Shown here: positions 1,126 to 26,180 of the stretch, piece after piece
Position numbering within the stretch: the stretch's first letter is position 1
How the letters are laid out: each line of letters begins with the position of its first letter
Assembly: GCF_029277445.1 (NCBI RefSeq)
Contig: NZ_CP119566.1
Location: forward strand, 1,676,001-1,740,000
Reading direction: 5' to 3'
DNA: 64,000 nucleotides
Origin: Pararhizobium qamdonense
Lineage (GTDB): Bacteria > Pseudomonadota > Alphaproteobacteria > Rhizobiales > Rhizobiaceae
Program-made: the position numbers and the translations under genes
The notes under the pieces: model-generated
The model's input: only the letters and a program-made list of their open reading frames with translations
Databases searched by the model: none
What the model was told of the DNA's origin: nothing

Positions 1126-2580
1126 TCACACCCCGCTGGCCGGGATGCCGGTCCGCTGCACCTTGCGGGGTGCGGTAATGTCCTTCCAGGTCGAGAGCGC
1201 CTTGTTGACGGCGGTGTAGGGCTCGCGTTTGACGAATTTGCCCTGGCCTTCGCGGGTCTTCACCGTCGATTCCTCGATGGCGACAATGCCGGCGGTCAGC
1301 GTGTAGCGCGGCAGGCCGGTGACCTGTTTGCCCTCGAAGACGTTGTAATCGATCGCCGATTGCTGGGTTGCGGCCGAAATGGTCTTTTCGCGCTTCGGGT
1401 CCCAGACGACGAGATCGGCATCGGCGCCGACCAGGATCGCGCCCTTCTTCGGATAGATGTTGAGGATCTTGGCGATATTGGTCGAGGTAACGGCCACGAA
1501 CTCGTTCATGGTGATGCGGCCGGTGGCGACGCCGTGCGTCCACAGCATCGGCATGCGGTCTTCAAGCCCGCCGGTGCCGTTGGGGATCTTGGTGAAATCA
1601 CCGGCGCCGAAGCGTTTCTGCGCCGTGGTGAAGGCGCAGTGATCGGTAGCGACCACCTGTAGGGACCCGGCTGAAAGTCCAGCCCAGAGACTGTCCTGAT
1701 GCTGCTTGTTGCGGAACGGCGGCGACATCACGCGGCGCGCGGCATGGTCCCAATCGGGATTGGCATATTCGCTTTCATCCAGCGTCAGGTGCTGGATCAG
1801 CGGCTCGCCATAGACGCGCATGCCGTTTTGACGGGCGCGGCGGATGGCCTCATGCGCCTGTTCGCAGGACGTGTGCACCACATAGAGCGGGCTGCCGGCC
1901 ATATCGGCGATGATGATGGCGCGGTTGGTGGCTTCGCCCTCGACGGCGGCCGGGCGCGAATAGGCGTGGGCCTCGGGGCCATTATTGCCGTCCGCCAGCA
2001 GCTTTGCCTGCATCTGCGCGACGATATCGCCGTTTTCGGCGTGCACCATCGGCAGTGCGCCAAGCTCGGCGCAGCGCTGGAACGAGTGGAACATCTCGTC
2101 GTCATCCACCATCAGCGCGCCCTTGTAGGCCATGAAGTGCTTGAACGAGTTGATGCCCTTGTCCTCTACGATCGTCTGCATCTCGTTGAAGACCTGCTCG
2201 CCCCACCAGGTGATCGCCATGTGGAAGGAGAAATCGCAATTGGCCCGCGACGTCTTGTTGTCCCACATGGTGAGCGCTTCGAGCAGCGACTGGCCAGGCG
2301 CCGGCAGCGCGAAATCGACGACCATGGTCGTGCCGCCGGACAGTGCCGCGCGCGTGCCGCTCTCGAAATCGTCGGAGGAATAGGTGCCCATGAACGGCAT
2401 TTCGAGATGCGTATGCGGATCGATGCCGCCGGGCATGACATAACAGCCGGTCGCATCCAGCGTCTCATCACCAGTGAGATCAGGCCCGATCTCCACGATC
2501 CTGCCACCATCGATCTTGACGTCGGCCTTGTAGGTGAGGTCGGCGGTGACGATGGTTCCGTTTTTGATGACTGTGGTCAT
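1126..2580 (-). CDS. hydA: Dihydropyrimidinase / D-hydantoinase
   Basis: 484 residues, normal length for the amidohydrolase-superfamily dihydropyrimidinases that open 5,6-dihydrouracil or dihydrothymine to the N-carbamoyl beta-amino acid in the cytoplasm. The metal site is visible: DPHTHLEMPF (His56 and His58), the lysine expected to be carbamylated in the segment SFKHFMAYKG, the histidines in VHAENGD and VVHTSCEQ, and the Asp in ATDHCAF. The start ATG overlaps the stop of the upstream DUF559 gene by four bases (ATGA), implying translational coupling. With preTA and the downstream amidohydrolase it forms the reductive pyrimidine pathway. The family also accepts 5-substituted hydantoins, so the true substrate range is open. 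Confidence 0.95.
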   Translation of the reverse strand: MTTVIKNGTIVTADLTYKADVKIDGGRIVEIGPDLTGDETLDATGCYVMPGGIDPHTHLEMPFMGTYSSDDFESGTRAALSGGTTMVVDFALPAPGQSLLEALTMWDNKTSRANCDFSFHMAITWWGEQVFNEMQTIVEDKGINSFKHFMAYKGALMVDDDEMFHSFQRCAELGALPMVHAENGDIVAQMQAKLLADGNNGPEAHAYSRPAAVEGEATNRAIIIADMAGSPLYVVHTSCEQAHEAIRRARQNGMRVYGEPLIQHLTLDESEYANPDWDHAARRVMSPPFRNKQHQDSLWAGLSAGSLQVVATDHCAFTTAQKRFGAGDFTKIPNGTGGLEDRMPMLWTHGVATGRITMNEFVAVTSTNIAKILNIYPKKGAILVGADADLVVWDPKREKTISAATQQSAIDYNVFEGKQVTGLPRYTLTAGIVAIEESTVKTREGQGKFVKREPYTAVNKALSTWKDITAPRKVQRTGIPASGV

Positions 2581-17973: not shown

Positions 17974-18668
17974 TGACGATGCATCCGCCCAAATTGGTGA
18001 TTTTCGATTGCGACGGCGTTCTCGTCGATAGCGAGCCCTTGTCGCTCGATGTCCTGGTCCGGGTGCTGCGCAATGCCGGTGTCGATATGGACGCCGAGGA
18101 GGCGACCGAGCGGTTTCTTGGCAAGAGCCTGAAGACCATGTCGGATATCCTGCATGACGATTACGGTCTTGCGGTGGACGATCATTTTCTGGAGCAGATG
18201 CGCCTCGACCTCTACCAGCGCTTCCGGCAGGAATTGCAGCCGGTCGCCGGGATCGCCACGGCGCTCGACGAGCTCGATCTTCCCAGATGCGTGGCCTCTT
18301 CCAGCCAGATGGAGCGCATAAGGCTATCGCTGACCATTACCGGGCTGATCGGCAAGCTCGAACCGCATCTGTTCAGCTCCAGCATGGTCAAGCACGGCAA
18401 GCCGGCCCCGGACCTCTTTCTGCATGCCGCAGCCGAAATGGCGACGCCGCCGGAAAACTGCATCGTCGTCGAAGACAGCCCGGCCGGCATCGAGGCGGCA
18501 AAGGCTGCGGGCATGCGGGTTTTTGCCTTTGCCGGCGCCTCGCATGCACGGTCCGAGCGCCATCTGGAGACTTTGCGGCGGCTTTCGCCTGACGTGCTGT
18601 TTGACGACATGCGTGAATTGATCCATTTTGTCCGTAAAGAACAAAGGGATGGGAACGCAGGTCTCTGA
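17973..18668 (+). CDS. HAD-superfamily sugar-phosphate phosphatase / beta-phosphoglucomutase-like
   Basis: 231 residues. Motif I is FDCDGVLVDSEP (DxDG), motif II VASSSQ, motif III lysine KHGKPAPDLF, and motif IV VEDSPAGIEAA. This is the subfamily of beta-phosphoglucomutase and small sugar-phosphate phosphatases. Start ATG 17973 (or 17979). It ends in a one-base overlap with the FGGY kinase gene (TGATG). In the smo operon it probably acts on a polyol- or ketose-derived phosphate, perhaps as a phosphate-removal safety step; the substrate is not readable from the sequence. Confidence 0.85.
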   Translation: MTMHPPKLVIFDCDGVLVDSEPLSLDVLVRVLRNAGVDMDAEEATERFLGKSLKTMSDILHDDYGLAVDDHFLEQMRLDLYQRFRQELQPVAGIATALDELDLPRCVASSSQMERIRLSLTITGLIGKLEPHLFSSSMVKHGKPAPDLFLHAAAEMATPPENCIVVEDSPAGIEAAKAAGMRVFAFAGASHARSERHLETLRRLSPDVLFDDMRELIHFVRKEQRDGNAGL

Positions 18669-20248
18669 TGGCTGATTTGATCGTTGCGGTCGATGTCGGA
18701 ACCGGCAGCGCTCGCGCTGGCATTTTCGATCGGCATGGCAAGCAGCTGGCGCGCGCGGATTATCCGATCGCGATGAACCGGCCTGAGGAAAATCACGCCG
18801 AACATGATTCCGAAAATATCTGGTCCGCCGTCTGTATCGCCGTCAAGACCGCGCGTGCCAAGGCAGGCGTTCCCGCCGAAGCGATCGCCGCGATCGGGTT
18901 TGACGCGACCTGCTCGCTTGTGGTGCGCGACCGGGACGGAGCCCCCTTATCGGTCAATCGCAAGGGCGATCCGCGCTGGGATACGATCGTCTGGCTCGAT
19001 CACCGCGCGTTGAAGCAGGCGGATTTCTGCACGGCCACGCAGCATCCGGTCCTCAACCATTCCGGCCGCGTCATGTCGCCGGAAATGGAAATGCCCAAGC
19101 TGATGTGGCTGAAGCAGAACCTGCCGCAGCAATGGGAAAAGACCGGTTTCTTCTTCGATCTCGCCGATTTCATGTCCTGGCGGGCAACCGGCAATGCCGC
19201 ACGCTCGCGCTGCACGCTGACGGCCAAGTGGAACTATCTATCGCACAAGGAACACGGCTGGCAGGACGAATTTCTCGACGCAATCGGACTGGAAGACCTG
19301 CGCGTGCGCGGCGGCCTGCCGGAAAAGACGCTGCCGGTCGGGCAATCGGCCGGGCACCTGACGGCTGCGGCTGCGGCCGAACTCGGCCTGCACGAGGATT
19401 GCGCGGTGGCGACGGGGCTGATCGATGCCTATGCCGGGGCCATTGGCGTTCTCGGCGGCTTTGCCGGAGAACCGGAGACGCTGGAGCGGCAACTGGCCCT
19501 GATCGCCGGGACCTCCAGCTGCATCGTTGCCTTTTCAAAAGACATGAAGCCGGGTTTTGGCATGTGGGGACCCTATTTCGAGGCGGCCTTTGCCGGCAGC
19601 TGGCTGATCGAGGGTGGGCAATCGGCAACCGGCGCGCTGCTGGATCATGTGGTGCGCAGCCACAGTGCCGGCGGCGAGCCCGATGCGGAAATTCACCAGC
19701 GGATCGTTCTGCGCATTCAGGAATTGCGCGCGGCCTACGGCACCGAGTTTGCGGCGCGCCTGCACGTTCTGCCCGATTTCCACGGAAACCGCTCGCCGCT
19801 TGCCGATCCGCATGCGCTGGGGGTCATCAGCGGCCTGACGCTGGACAGTTCGTTCGACGCGCTCTGCCGGCTCTACTGGCGCACCTGCGTCGCCATCGCG
19901 CTTGGTATCCGCCACATTCTCGAAATGATGAAACAGGCGGGCTACGATCTCGACACGCTGCATGTGACCGGTGGCCATGTCCGCAACGTATTATTGATGG
20001 AGCTTTACTCCGACGTCACCGGCTGCACGGTCGTTGTGCCGGAAACCAATGATGCCGTCCTGCTCGGGACGGCCATGGTCGCGTCGGTTGCCGGTGGCCT
20101 TTATCCGGATTTGCGTGCGGCTGGACCGGCCATGTCTCCCGGCGGTCATGCGCAATATCCGAACCCCGCTCTGCGGGAAACCTATGACAGCGATTACCGG
20201 AAGTTCCTGAGCCTCTACCGGCATCGCGCCGAGCTGGAAACGCTGTAA
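18668..20248 (+). CDS. FGGY-family pentulose kinase (D-ribulokinase type)
   Basis: 526 residues. The N-terminal ATPase motif is VDVGTGSARAGIFD; WLDHRA and GGHVRN are typical of the ribulokinase-like FGGY branch. The enzyme should phosphorylate a ketopentose such as D-ribulose. Since MtlK and SmoS also oxidise pentitols, the kinase would extend the operon to ribitol or arabinitol use; this is inference. The gene ends the operon. An EcfG-type promoter and a candidate small RNA start 43 bases downstream. Confidence 0.85.
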   Translation: MADLIVAVDVGTGSARAGIFDRHGKQLARADYPIAMNRPEENHAEHDSENIWSAVCIAVKTARAKAGVPAEAIAAIGFDATCSLVVRDRDGAPLSVNRKGDPRWDTIVWLDHRALKQADFCTATQHPVLNHSGRVMSPEMEMPKLMWLKQNLPQQWEKTGFFFDLADFMSWRATGNAARSRCTLTAKWNYLSHKEHGWQDEFLDAIGLEDLRVRGGLPEKTLPVGQSAGHLTAAAAAELGLHEDCAVATGLIDAYAGAIGVLGGFAGEPETLERQLALIAGTSSCIVAFSKDMKPGFGMWGPYFEAAFAGSWLIEGGQSATGALLDHVVRSHSAGGEPDAEIHQRIVLRIQELRAAYGTEFAARLHVLPDFHGNRSPLADPHALGVISGLTLDSSFDALCRLYWRTCVAIALGIRHILEMMKQAGYDLDTLHVTGGHVRNVLLMELYSDVTGCTVVVPETNDAVLLGTAMVASVAGGLYPDLRAAGPAMSPGGHAQYPNPALRETYDSDYRKFLSLYRHRAELETL

Positions 20249-20290: not shown

Positions 20291-20315
20291 GGAACTATTT
20301 GTTCGTCCGTCCGTT
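20291..20315 (+). promoter_or_regulatory. EcfG-type promoter of a candidate small RNA
   Basis: GGAAC (20291-20295), exactly 16 bases, then CGTT (20312-20315): a perfect match to the EcfG/RpoE2 promoter GGAAC-N16/17-CGTT. No start codon with a ribosome binding site follows, but a structured region ending in an intrinsic terminator does. ecfG itself lies 2.5 kb away. Confidence 0.75.
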
Positions 20316-20321
20316 TTTATG

Positions 20322-20449
20322 ATGTCTGGATAGCGGTTCACATCGCCCCCAATGGGAACCACAATTTAATATCCGGTACCCAACTCACACGCCCCCTCGG
20401 TGAGTTGCAATATCAGCCAGTGCCTTCCCCCGGCGCTGGCTGTTTTTTT
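20322..20449 (+). ncRNA. Candidate EcfG-dependent small RNA with three C5-loop hairpins
   Basis: The transcript predicted from the EcfG promoter to the terminator is about 128 nt. Hairpin 1: GGTTC/GAACC (20335-20339, 20356-20360) plus CAT/ATG, loop CGCCCCCA. Hairpin 2: CAACTCAC/GTGAGTTG (20381-20388, 20400-20407), loop ACGCCCCCTCG. Hairpin 3 is the terminator, loop TTCCCCC. All three loops expose five cytosines, as expected for an RNA that pairs with G-rich ribosome binding sites. It resembles in concept GsrN, the C-rich-loop stress sRNA of Caulobacter, and other C-rich alphaproteobacterial sRNAs. I cannot assign it to a known RNA family. The 5' end is estimated from the promoter. Confidence 0.65.
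20414..20449 (+). terminator. Strong intrinsic terminator
   Basis: CAGCCAGTGCC (20414-20424) pairs with GGCGCTGGCTG (20432-20442) over 11 base pairs with one G-U, loop TTCCCCC, then seven T residues. It ends the candidate small RNA and may also stop read-through from the smo operon into the convergent kinase gene. Confidence 0.9.
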
Positions 20450-20506: not shown

Positions 20507-21544
20507 TCACGCTTCGTTGATGATTTCATATTCCCGCGACGGGACGGTCAAACGGTATTCGATCCGGTCCGGCGCCTGCAGGTATTGCGCCTTGCCGCCG
20601 ATTGCCACCGGCACCACCCGTTCCAGCACCGTGCGCGCAAACGTATGTTCGTCCACTTCCCGCTGGGCAGCGGCGGGCGGCAGGTGCTCCACCCAGGCCA
20701 GTTCGATGGCCGGATGTCCGTCAAGGATGGTGTCGAAACACTCGATCGTCAGCGCATTCATGCCCGCCGATATCGCACCATGCGATGCCGAATTGACGAT
20801 CAGTTCGTGCAGTGCAAGGCCAATATGCAGGGCGGCATTGGGGGAAAGATGGGCATTGATGCCTTTGACCGAAATCGGTGTTTCGGAATCCGGCCAATAG
20901 GCGCTGAACTGCCGCTTGGCCAACTCGAACAGATAGGCACCGCGCCAGCTGGAATCGGTGACCAGGTCCTGCGAATAGGCAAGGGACTGGATACGCCCGC
21001 GAAACTTGATGAGAAAATAATCCAGCGACAGCGCTTGCCGCGCCGTCTGGGTGGCGATGCCCTGGATGATTGCTAGCAGGTTTTTGGAGCGGTGGCTGAG
21101 TTCGCGCAGCAGCGTCTTTAAAATTCGCTCGCGATGCCGGGTTTCGGAGATGTCGGTGATGACGCTGAGGATGCCGGTCATCCCGGTGGCATCAACACGC
21201 TCGATATCGATCCGGTATGTCAAGACGCCCGTGGCGGACGCCATGTCGATCTCGGTCGATGTGGAGGTATTCGTGGAGATGACATTGCGTTTCAAGGCGA
21301 TCAGCCGTGCGCCATCGTCCGCGCCAAACACTGCCTGTTCCGCCTGTTCTTCCGTTGCGAGCTGCTGCAATCCCTCAGGCAGGTTTCCCGATAGAACAGT
21401 GAAGAGATCGTCGGACTGGTAAACATAGCCAGCCCCTGACTTGCGCAAAACCAGTTCCATCAGGATCTTGCTGGTATCGGCGCCGGTCTCGTTTGAGGCT
21501 GAGTTGCCTGCATTGCCCACGCGAAGCGCCTTCCATGTTTTCAT
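20507..21544 (-). CDS. PAS-HWE/HisKA_2 sensor kinase with degenerate ATP-binding region, next to phyR
   Basis: 345 residues from the ATG at 21542-21544; the frame extends upstream to a TTG but without a ribosome binding site. A PAS-like region (residues 30-135) precedes the HisKA_2 helix LLRELSHRSKNLLAII with His151. The N-box ALHELIVNSASHG carries Asn251. The later ATP-binding elements are altered: the usual W-x-E-x-x-G-PP is WVEHLPP, and the usual GFG before the LIER helix is TFA (residues 301-303). It lies on the phyR strand, 173 bases downstream. It probably tunes PhyR phosphorylation; the changes suggest weak kinase activity or a phosphatase or scaffold role. Confidence 0.8.
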   Translation of the reverse strand: MKTWKALRVGNAGNSASNETGADTSKILMELVLRKSGAGYVYQSDDLFTVLSGNLPEGLQQLATEEQAEQAVFGADDGARLIALKRNVISTNTSTSTEIDMASATGVLTYRIDIERVDATGMTGILSVITDISETRHRERILKTLLRELSHRSKNLLAIIQGIATQTARQALSLDYFLIKFRGRIQSLAYSQDLVTDSSWRGAYLFELAKRQFSAYWPDSETPISVKGINAHLSPNAALHIGLALHELIVNSASHGAISAGMNALTIECFDTILDGHPAIELAWVEHLPPAAAQREVDEHTFARTVLERVVPVAIGGKAQYLQAPDRIEYRLTVPSREYEIINEA

Positions 21545-21645
21545 CTGTCGTCTGCGCAGTTCCCGCGCGGGGGAAAAAGCAGACTTTCGGACGGTCTTCA
21601 AACCGGATTTGGCGCCGGTTCGAATGCGATGCGCCCTGTCCCGGA

Positions 21646-21717: not shown

Positions 21718-22512
21718 TCAGGCGGCAGCCTTGGTCGATTCATTGAAGAACAGGGCCTGGCTGATGAGTGCCTTGACCATGTCCGGATTGAACGGCTTGG
21801 TGACCAGGAAGGTCGGTTCGGGGCGTTCGCCAGTCAAGAGACGCTCGGGGAACGCGGTGATGAAGATCACCGGGATGGCTGTGTTTTTCAGGATGTCGTT
21901 GACGGCATCGATGCCGGAGCTGCCATCAGCAAGCTGAATATCGGCAAGCACCATGCTCGGCTGTGTCGCCTTGAACAGCGCGACCGCCTCGTCACGGGTG
22001 CGGGCGATGCCGGTCACATTATGGCCGAGGCTTTCAACCATCTGCTCGATATCGATCGCGATCAGGGGCTCGTCCTCGATGATCATGATATCGGTTGCAA
22101 CCTGGCGCGAAATCTCTTCCGATGCGCGCTCGAGCAGCTGGTTCATGCCGCTTTCAGTCGTATCGAGAACTTCGGCCGCTTCGCTGGTACGGAAGCCTTC
22201 GACCGACACCAGGAGGAAAGCCTGACGGGCAAGCGGCGAAACCGAGGCAAGGTTGATCGATGCGCGCTTTTCCCAGGCAAAGGGCGAAACCGGTTCCGGG
22301 ATGAGGACGGAAGACGAGCCGAACAGCTTTGTATAGAGCTGGAACAGGGCAACCCTGTCATTGCTGGCTTCCGGGAAAATGCTGACATCTGTGATAAGCG
22401 CTTCCAGAACGGCTGCGACATAGGCGTCGCCCGAGGTCTGCGATCCGGTCAATGCGCGCGAATACCGGCGCAGATAGGGCAGGAACGGAGCGATCCGGGT
22501 GGAAAGTGACAT
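21718..22512 (-). CDS. phyR: General stress response anti-anti-sigma response regulator PhyR
   Basis: 264 residues. An N-terminal sigma-factor-like domain (residues 1-135, including SPLARQAFLLVSVEGF and SEAAEVLDT) is fused to a C-terminal receiver domain with acidic pocket MIIEDEPLIAID, phosphoacceptor Asp191 (MVLADIQL), ITAF and the KPF lysine. Phosphorylated PhyR uses its sigma-like domain to pull NepR off EcfG. The ATG at 22510-22512 has GGGAG upstream. A perfect EcfG promoter lies 50 bases upstream, so the regulator is under positive feedback. Confidence 0.97.
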   Translation of the reverse strand: MSLSTRIAPFLPYLRRYSRALTGSQTSGDAYVAAVLEALITDVSIFPEASNDRVALFQLYTKLFGSSSVLIPEPVSPFAWEKRASINLASVSPLARQAFLLVSVEGFRTSEAAEVLDTTESGMNQLLERASEEISRQVATDIMIIEDEPLIAIDIEQMVESLGHNVTGIARTRDEAVALFKATQPSMVLADIQLADGSSGIDAVNDILKNTAIPVIFITAFPERLLTGERPEPTFLVTKPFNPDMVKALISQALFFNESTKAAA

Positions 22513-22561: not shown

Positions 22562-22586
22562 AACGCGATGCGAAAAAAAAGGTTCC
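22562..22586 (-). promoter_or_regulatory. EcfG-dependent promoter of phyR
   Basis: Read on the minus strand: GGAAC (22586-22582), 16 bases, CGTT (22565-22562). It matches the GGAAC-N16-CGTT consensus perfectly and leaves a leader of about 45 bases to the phyR ATG. Confidence 0.85.
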
Positions 22587-22654: not shown

Positions 22655-22846
22655 ATGACGGACAAACTTGGGGCAGGGCGCGAGAGACCTTCTCGCACCG
22701 ACAATCCTAACGCGCAGATTGCAACAAAGCTCCGCGCGCTTTATCTCTCTGTACAGGAAGAAGCTATTCCGGACCGCTTTCTCGATCTGCTTGAGCAGCT
22801 CGACGCGGTCGAGCGCCAGTCGTCGATGACGGATGCGACAGAATGA
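22655..22846 (+). CDS. nepR: Anti-sigma factor NepR
   Basis: 63 residues from the ATG at 22655; a TTG at 22646 would add three residues. The conserved NepR core is IATKLRALYLSVQEEAIPDR followed by FLDLLEQLD. NepR binds EcfG and blocks it until phospho-PhyR competes it away. The stop overlaps the ecfG start by four bases (ATGA), which keeps anti-sigma and sigma factor in balance. It is divergent from phyR, the standard alphaproteobacterial layout. Confidence 0.95.
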   Translation: MTDKLGAGRERPSRTDNPNAQIATKLRALYLSVQEEAIPDRFLDLLEQLDAVERQSSMTDATE

Positions 22847-23406
22847 GCGGCGGTATGTCTGAAGAACCCAGTTTCAAGCGCGAAATGCTGGCGGCTCTTC
22901 CGAGCCTGCGCGCCTTTGCCATGTCCCTGATCGGCCGTCACGACCGCGCTGACGATCTGGTTCAGGACACCATCATGAAGGCCTGGGCCAAACAGGACCA
23001 TTTCGAGATGGGCACCAACATGAAGGCGTGGCTTTTCACCATCCTTCGTAACGAGCTTTACAGCCAGATGCGCAAACGCGGCCGCGAGGTTCAGGATAGT
23101 GACGGGTACTTCACCGAATCGCTTGCCCAGCACCCGGCCCAGTATGGCTCGCTCGATCTGCAGGATTTCAAGCGGGCACTCGACACGCTTCCTCCCGATC
23201 AGCGCGAGGCGATCATTCTTGTTGGAGCCTCCGGCTTTTCCTATGAGGAAGCGGCTGAGATCTGCGGTTGCGCACTCGGTACGATCAAGAGCCGCGTCAA
23301 CCGCGCCCGGCAACGGCTTCAGGATATTCTCCAGGTCACAGGTGAAAACGAATATGGTCCGGATGCCACCTCGGCACCGATGACCTCCCGTGCCTTCATC
23401 TCCTGA
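22843..23406 (+). CDS. ecfG: Extracytoplasmic-function sigma factor EcfG (RpoE2)
   Basis: 187 residues. Sigma region 2 is visible around RHDRADDLVQDTIMKAWAK and MKAWLFTILRN; region 4 is LPPDQREAIILVGASGFSY then CALGTIKSRVNRARQRL. This is the general stress sigma factor that reads GGAAC-N16/17-CGTT promoters, several of which are in this window. It is translationally coupled to nepR. A 36-base palindrome follows the gene. Confidence 0.95.
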   Translation: MSGGMSEEPSFKREMLAALPSLRAFAMSLIGRHDRADDLVQDTIMKAWAKQDHFEMGTNMKAWLFTILRNELYSQMRKRGREVQDSDGYFTESLAQHPAQYGSLDLQDFKRALDTLPPDQREAIILVGASGFSYEEAAEICGCALGTIKSRVNRARQRLQDILQVTGENEYGPDATSAPMTSRAFIS

Positions 23407-25664: not shown

Positions 25665-26054
25665 TTATCGGCGCAGCAGTGCTGCAACCAGGATACCGAC
25701 AGCGGCCGCTGCACCCAGCGTCGCGATGGGATGCTGGCGCACGGTCTGGCGGACCTGCTTTTCAGTCGAGGAATAGCGGCTGCGCAGTTCGGCAATTAGC
25801 GCCTCGCCATTTTCCAGAAGGTCCTGGAGGCCCGATTCAGCCTGGTCGCGCACGTCATAGGCGCGGCTGCGAACGTCTTTGGATGCTTCCGATGCCCGGG
25901 CCCGTACATCCTTCGACGCATCGGCGCCGCGCTTCGACAGGAGCTTTGCCAGCGAGGCGATATCATCGCGGATTTCGCTGATCTGGTCCTCGATCGGGGC
26001 ATCGAGAAGGCTGCCATTGCGTTTCTTGGCGCTGGAAAAAAGACCGGTGGCCAT
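25665..26054 (-). CDS. DUF883 (ElaB/YqjD-like) membrane-anchored protein
   Basis: 129 residues: a charged, helical N-terminal and central part rich in Asp, Arg and Ala (SKDVRARASEASKDVRSRA), then RQHPIATLGAAAAVGILVAA as a single C-terminal membrane anchor, the DUF883 hallmark. E. coli YqjD and ElaB are stress-induced inner-membrane, ribosome-associated proteins. The ATG at 26052-26054 follows AGGAGC. A perfect EcfG promoter lies about 100 bases upstream, placing the gene in the general stress regulon. Confidence 0.85.
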   Translation of the reverse strand: MATGLFSSAKKRNGSLLDAPIEDQISEIRDDIASLAKLLSKRGADASKDVRARASEASKDVRSRAYDVRDQAESGLQDLLENGEALIAELRSRYSSTEKQVRQTVRQHPIATLGAAAAVGILVAALLRR

Positions 26055-26155: not shown

Positions 26156-26180
26156 AACGCATGGAAAGCGGTTTGGTTCC
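26156..26180 (-). promoter_or_regulatory. EcfG-type promoter of the DUF883/membrane protein pair
   Basis: On the minus strand: GGAAC (26180-26176), 16 bases, CGTT (26159-26156), a perfect match to the EcfG consensus and correctly oriented towards the DUF883 gene. Confidence 0.75.

Follow-up and report, generated by a model that had tools for sequence, protein, structure and literature searches.

The window, by which we mean the whole 64-kb stretch of DNA analysed here, contains a general-stress hub of the textbook alphaproteobacterial kind, in which profile matches identify a HWE kinase, PhyR, NepR, EcfG and a second HWE kinase (Table 1). To the left of the hub lies a polyol (smo) operon, the last gene of which encodes an FGGY kinase, and a small RNA (sRNA) unit on the plus strand is sited between this gene and the first HWE kinase gene. 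The EcfG of the window is 88% identical to the copy at an R. etli-like locus, and its first HWE kinase is 53% identical to the kinase there. The assignment of the 63-aa NepR depends on the Pfam profile, the NCBIfam NepR model giving 20.1 bits only on the same frame against a cut-off of 100.

Table 1. Coordinates of the sRNA unit, its parts and the neighbouring genes in the window, and of alpha-r14/NfeR1 loci elsewhere in the same genome
Feature	Position	Strand	Remarks
FGGY-family pentulose kinase, last gene of the polyol operon	18668..20248	+	
EcfG-type promoter GGAAC-N16-CGTT	20291..20315	+	GGAAC 20291-20295, CGTT 20312-20315
ReC64-type sRNA unit, ~128 nt	20322..20449	+	predicted start 7 nt past the -10; end, T-tract
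5' domain	20326..20376	+	closing stem 20326-20331/20371-20376 enclosing hairpin 1 (20335-20360)
Loop 1, CGCCCCCA, presumed main pairing loop	20344..20351	+	
Hairpin 2	20381..20407	+	loop ACGCCCCCTCG 20389-20399
Hairpin 3 and T7, intrinsic terminator	20414..20449	+	hairpin 20414-20442, loop TTCCCCC 20425-20431, T7 20443-20449
HWE histidine kinase (TcrY-like), convergent with the sRNA	20507..21601	-	
PhyR response regulator/anti-anti-sigma factor	21718..22512	-	NF006623, 381.9 bits
NepR anti-sigma factor, 63 aa	22655..22846	+	PF18557, 57.3 bits
EcfG sigma factor	22843..23406	+	NF009169, 382.3 bits
alpha-r14/NfeR1 loci, G000	C1:2834756-2835174, C1:2430932, C2:308891, C2:860295, C3:66840, C4:207490		

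The sRNA unit and its promoter

The unit is preceded by an exact GGAAC-N16-CGTT promoter, which begins 42 nt past the stop codon of the FGGY kinase gene on the same strand. Three copies of this exact pattern are present in the 64 kb of the window, where 0.50 would be expected (2 of 100 shuffles contain as many), and all of them lie within about 6 kb of one another; when a spacing of 15-17 is allowed, the three sites against 1.53 expected are not unusual (17 of 100 shuffles). One of the other two sites (22562-22586, minus strand) lies ahead of phyR and is consistent with autoregulation of the hub. The third (26156-26180, minus strand) lies about 100 nt upstream of a small-protein ORF at about 25665-26054 on the minus strand, presumably DUF883-like, which is a plausible further EcfG target. 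The sole sigma-70-like site between 20200 and 20600 falls inside the transcript (20337-20365, 9 of 12 matches).

The region 20316-20449 folds at -48.2 kcal/mol (z = -4.53), and none of 200 shuffles was as stable. Hairpin 1 is enclosed by a closing stem of CTGGAT paired with ATCCGG, which adds to the hairpin 1 of the first-pass annotation, an earlier reading of the raw sequence; in the minimum free energy fold of hairpin 2, the C and G flanks of the loop pair further. Written as RNA, the three loops are CGCCCCCA, ACGCCCCCUCG and UUCCCCC. A terminator search recovered exactly hairpin 3 with its T7, terminator-like sites being common (0.8 expected per shuffle), and a chance terminator was set aside as a reading of the unit. 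A coding gene was likewise set aside, there being no convincing ORF: the only plus-strand ORF of at least 20 aa that overlaps the unit starts within hairpin 2 (at 20400) and extends, in antisense, into the kinase gene. The first-pass annotation had described an exact EcfG-type promoter at 20291, followed by no gene but by three hairpins, the last of them a terminator with seven T residues, between the smo operon and the phyR-side kinase; the promoter is there to the letter, the fold, ORF and terminator searches bear out the hairpins, and the gene calls bear out the position.

Conservation of the RNA, its promoter and its place

Because a plain DNA similarity search at E 1e-3 gave matches in no more than 12 of 151 family genomes, we adopted a covariance model, R1, which was built on the transcript alone from 19 sequences (the window and 18 relatives, none of them from genus g29). 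Genus g29 was identified as Rhizobium sensu stricto through cyoB, which among the matches listed agrees at 80-100% with the gene on R. etli plasmid p42e. A covariance search of Rfam and of other Rhizobiaceae had been proposed as a check of the candidate. No Rfam family reaches its gathering score at the sRNA (in the window only a tRNA does), and R1 finds the RNA in all 26 genomes of the window's genus and in all 148 genomes of Rhizobium sensu stricto. Across the family, R1 reports matches in 78 of 394 sampled genomes, and in 66 of the 394, belonging to 13 of 106 genera, the E-value of the match is at most 1.8e-7. We attributed the remaining 12, which are weak, to chance; three matches at about 1e-6 to 1e-3 were read and taken as such, namely L068, which is in the window's own genome, and L079, both inside the same kind of ORF (transporter-like, by eye), and L076, upstream of which GGAAC was not seen. 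Since the family search scored eight candidates per genome, absence of the RNA from the remaining family genomes is unproven.

R1 excludes the promoter, and conservation of the promoter was read separately in 83 upstream regions, which include that of the window itself and come in many cases from close relatives. GGAAC was found in every one of them, and in 81 it is followed by N16 and a -10 of the form [CTG][AGT]TT (CGTT in 60, CATT in 12, TGTT in 8 and GATT in 1), the two exceptions having an N17 spacer and a different -10, respectively; letter-shuffled upstream regions match GGAAC-N15-17-[CT][AG]TT in 0.2% of cases. The conservation of the promoter in related genomes, by which the first-pass annotation proposed that its reading be judged, was thus found.

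The structure was examined in an alignment of 28 distinct sequences, mostly from the window's genus, with genera g92 and g9 added. Left out were the window itself met again (L030), a locus of the same species (L058), two near duplicates (L024 and L027), a match cut at a contig end (L062) and the genus genomes lacking a returned locus. Of 951 cells, 96.6% pair as the named structure requires, and pairing falls to 28-38% when the partners are slid by one to three columns. Two-sided changes occur at 7 of 34 pairs, a number reached by 9 of 500 shuffles, and in 20 cells against 5.8 in shuffles (none of 500). Further pair types are no more numerous than shuffling would give (98 of 500). The compensation lies mostly in hairpin 1 (4 of 9 pairs, 91.6% of cells paired), plus one pair in the closing stem (1 of 6, 93.5% paired). 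In hairpins 2 and 3 all cells pair and 6 of 8 and 9 of 11 pairs, respectively, never vary; covariation therefore says little about these two hairpins.

The loops are conserved to different degrees. Loop 1 is identical in all 28 aligned sequences, and the linker that follows hairpin 1 occurs in 26 forms; this invariance beside a diverging linker makes loop 1 the best candidate for the working part of the RNA. C5 is kept in 27 of the 28 second loops, and the third loop has C5 in 20 and C4 in all 28. At 30 loci of Rhizobium sensu stricto, hairpin 1 mostly carries a shorter C-run, a run of C4-C5 comes after it, within the closing region, and CCCCUCCC is seen in hairpin 2. That each loop exposes CCCCC, as had been claimed, is true of this genome and does not extend to all of its relatives (C5 in 28, 27 and 20 of 28 for the three loops, and shifted C-runs in Rhizobium sensu stricto); judged from these sequences, the strict triple C5 is a local form.

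The place of the RNA is also conserved. At all 17 loci with enough context, phyR lies on the opposite strand 54-1283 nt from the aligned end of the sRNA, the FGGY kinase is absent at 3 of these loci and a close TcrY-like kinase at 6, so that among the 17 loci compared the linkage of the sRNA to phyR is steadier than that to the kinase or the sugar operon. At five loci (L069, L072, L073, L074 and L075) the PhyR is 54-56% identical to that of the window, the EcfG is 79-82% identical and no close TcrY-like kinase adjoins the sRNA; compared with the window, these loci point to two kinds of PhyR at one locus.

These observations bear on a rival explanation of the unit, in which it would be only the structured terminator at the 3' end of the smo operon, and the EcfG site would be incidental or would make a short inert transcript. 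Such an origin would fit the promoter, 42 nt past the kinase stop in the same orientation, and the intrinsic terminator that closes the unit; however, no smoK homologue was found within the 6-15 kb examined at three loci (two in Rhizobium sensu stricto and one in genus g103), where the RNA and its promoter are still there. Because the RNA persists where a smoK homologue was not found nearby, it is more than the 3' end of the smo operon. Moreover, linker and spacer have diverged, in contrast to the conserved loop 1 and promoter, and the R. etli RNA ReC64 is described as a separate transcript (PMC3892343). We therefore consider it very improbable that the unit is only an operon end.

Probable orthology with ReC64 of Rhizobium etli

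Whether the RNA is a homologue of GsrN or belongs to a known alpha-rhizobial sRNA family had been left undecided by the first-pass annotation, and our data point to ReC64. One genome of Rhizobium sensu stricto (G427) carries a cyoB that is 100% identical to that of R. etli CFN42 plasmid p42e, at the same coordinates, and by this match it is almost certainly R. etli CFN42. R1, although built without that genus, matches G427 with 66.8 bits (E 6.4e-16), and there the RNA converges with a kinase gene 41 nt away and with phyR 1216 nt away. The same convergent intergenic position downstream of phyR and the kinase is common to the window and the R. etli-like locus L110, and GGAAC-N16-CGTT lies directly upstream in both the window and L108. 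Jans et al. 2013 (PMC3892343) place ReC64 downstream of phyR-tcrY with an EcfG1 consensus ahead of it, in agreement with a start mapped by 5' RACE. They further report that the ReC64 promoter fusion is silent in ecfG1 mutants and retains 82% in ecfG2, and that EcfG1 and EcfG2 both activate ReC64 in E. coli. Salt shock raises ReC64 (PMC4167512); a matrix search in the same article gave overlapping SigA and RpoH promoters, not EcfG, for ReC64, which speaks against an exclusively EcfG-based view.

The published length of ReC64 is 88 nt (PMC3892343), whereas the distance from promoter to terminator predicts 126-128 nt. In G427, the expected start and the terminator end span 126 nt; an 88-nt RNA counted from this assumed start would stop immediately ahead of the terminator hairpin's core. 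Vercruysse et al. 2010 (PMC2881028) reported a larger, unexplained ReC64 band, which in the simplest reading would be the primary transcript, with the 88-nt RNA as its 5' product. Beyond locus and promoter, ReC64 shares the three hairpins with the window RNA, and it differs in that its C5 lies outside the loop of hairpin 1 and that no smo operon was found adjoining it.

By R1 match, locus and promoter, the window RNA is of the ReC64 type and thus a member of a described kind, which has already been proposed as a GsrN relative. The existence of a conserved, EcfG-linked sRNA, correctly seen from the raw sequence, is confirmed: control by EcfG is strongly supported by the conserved promoter, the covariation of the stems, the invariant loop 1 and the published ecfG1-dependence of the R. 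etli relative. For the window RNA, conservation, structure, promoter and locus were observed directly in our analysis. Transcription, the start site and EcfG dependence were established by others in R. etli, and by analogy the copy in the window is presumably transcribed in the same manner. The earlier interpretation thus holds as to an EcfG-controlled sRNA, now with a known relative, and gives way as to a strict triple C5 beyond this genome. We consider it very probable that the window RNA is a stand-alone, EcfG-dependent sRNA of ~128 nt, orthologous to R. etli ReC64, which most likely acts in trans as an antisense RNA through its C-rich loops.

In S. meliloti Ak57 the orthologue adjoins rsiB1, the S. 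meliloti phyR. The locus (L008) is on CP090106.1, a 3.72-Mb sequence labelled 'plasmid pSymB', which appears to be a mislabelled chromosome because it carries 6S RNA, RNase P RNA and rsiB1. SmelC601 resembles the orthologue in its RpoE2 promoter, its length of 127 nt, its minus strand and its location in the same part of the chromosome, but coordinate offsets in Ak57 (from 6S RNA and RNase P) place it about 12 kb from the orthologue; we rejected SmelC601 as the S. meliloti name, and it is probably another RNA. From the order of the numbers, that name may be SMc_sRNA_298.

Proposed loop pairing, candidate targets and related sRNAs

The features of the unit suggest a model for its action. Under stress, PhyR would free EcfG from NepR, and RNA polymerase with EcfG would transcribe the ~128-nt sRNA; its 5' domain and hairpin 2 would display C-rich loops, and hairpin 3 would end transcription. 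Loops 1 (invariant) and 2 (C-rich) would then most likely pair with G-tracts in mRNA leaders, like the 5' loop of GsrN, and this pairing would alter the stability or translation of the mRNAs concerned. The first-pass annotation proposed pairing with G-rich ribosome binding sites and a repressing role, which is possible; GsrN, the relative known best, has an activating effect on katG. In the open-access literature we found no target set, sign of regulation or further functional study for a rhizobial EcfG sRNA, and subscription journals may hold some; the terms searched for were absent from the accessible text of PMC2573895 and PMC2873474. The invariant loop 1 offers a precise site for a mutant.

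The search for candidate targets, made in the 26 genomes of the genus, required an exact complement of loop 1 (10-mer) in the 18 nt ahead of an ATG. There were 59 matches in 23 of the 26 genomes against 7 for a reversed control, which ignores codon usage, and for that reason we make no claim from the counts; the window genome itself had none. Among the 30 loci returned (28 distinct places), two only have an ATG, a long frame and an in-frame stop right before, and both are the same cadherin-like surface-protein gene, present in G401 and G334 with 97% identity over 501 aa and with a frame that extends past the returned locus. There, TTTGGGGGCGA, the exact complement of loop 1, lies 7-8 nt before the ATG (L148, 1500-1520, plus strand; L154, about 1500-1522, minus strand), and as two close copies of one gene it provides a lead to a candidate target. 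Other matched strings recur in two to four genomes, and those read had no convincing start.

The position of this complement, where a ribosome binding site would lie in two genomes of the genus, would also suit an RNA acting in the manner of alpha-r14/NfeR1, the three loops of which redundantly silence translation starts (PMC7143759). The window RNA could be the EcfG-driven counterpart of this family, its three loops serving as redundant anti-Shine-Dalgarno silencers of many mRNAs, and possibly an alpha-r14 copy that came under EcfG. The plan of three C-rich-loop hairpins ending in a terminator is the same, and RF02344 gives a full-length match to the window RNA (25.0 bits, E 0.0034, 161 bases). 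However, this score falls far short of the Rfam gathering threshold (58.8), which seven loci elsewhere in the genome do exceed; these alpha-r14/NfeR1 loci include a tandem pair and are distributed over four contigs (Table 1). On these grounds we rejected membership in alpha-r14. In addition, no ar14 match up to E 10 was found in any of 15 relatives (46.8 kb searched), nor one up to E 5 in the R. etli copy, and the alpha-r14 loops are CCUCCUCCC, not CCCCC. Such a counterpart therefore appears unlikely to us.

A second alternative is that the window RNA is a strict orthologue of GsrN and acts mainly by activating katG through its leader. In Caulobacter crescentus, GsrN activates katG by base pairing between six C's in its 5' loop and a G-tract in the katG leader, and cleavage of GsrN yields two products, of which the 5' one is stable and the 3' one less so (PMC5869019). 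Tien et al. 2018 (PMC5869019), who noted the C-rich 5' loop, used position, promoter, expression data or BLASTn to predict rhizobial GsrN homologues in R. etli, S. meliloti, Agrobacterium and Brucella; the window RNA has the features on which they relied, namely an EcfG promoter, a C-rich 5' loop and a position at the general-stress locus. In three of five Rhizobium sensu stricto genomes, which are close relatives and not independent, GUGGGGCG lies about 60 nt before the katG start. At the loci concerned (L125, L126 and L124, of the R. etli group), this string complements GCGCCCC-like parts of the local ReC64. We set aside calculated duplex energies, which take no account of how each RNA folds on itself. 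Against strict orthology, a G-run of at least four occurs in only 5 of 20 intact katG upstream stretches of 110 nt, and in 1 of 9 in the window's genus, a count from which the katG of G402, broken into five pieces, was dropped; 6 of 26 genomes have no katG match; and the BLASTn matches of GsrN are confined to Caulobacteraceae in the account of PMC5869019. The katG of the window genome has no G-run of four or more in the 110 nt upstream, where true leaders may be longer. Strict orthology with a mainly katG-directed action is thus distinctly improbable, and orthology with ReC64 is the reading that we prefer.

We further propose, tentatively and with more doubt than conviction, that Rhizobiaceae possess a multi-loop 'G-tract' sRNA proper to their EcfG general stress response. 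This RNA may have arisen in parallel to or from an alpha-r14-type RNA and become established next to phyR as a core element of the circuit. Like GsrN, it might be cut before the terminator into a stable two-loop 5' form, and its loops might redundantly retune many leaders, perhaps including those of the cadherin-like protein in some strains of the genus and of katG in the R. etli group.

The window RNA thus resembles two known systems in part. With alpha-r14/NfeR1 (RF02344), as with SmelA075/SmelA099, it shares the arrangement of three (or four) C-rich-loop hairpins in a stress-responsive RNA, and with alpha-r14/NfeR1 also a last hairpin that is the terminator; alpha-r14/NfeR1 is, in contrast, multicopy and has a sigma-70 promoter, whereas the window RNA has an EcfG site upstream. 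With GsrN it shares a promoter of the general-stress sigma factor and a C-rich loop in the 5' part, but it has two further C-rich loops and the katG upstream stretch of its genome is without a G-tract, and the likeness rests on promoter, loop and position. ReC64 and the rhizobial GsrN candidates, which were described separately, are now tied by one structural model.
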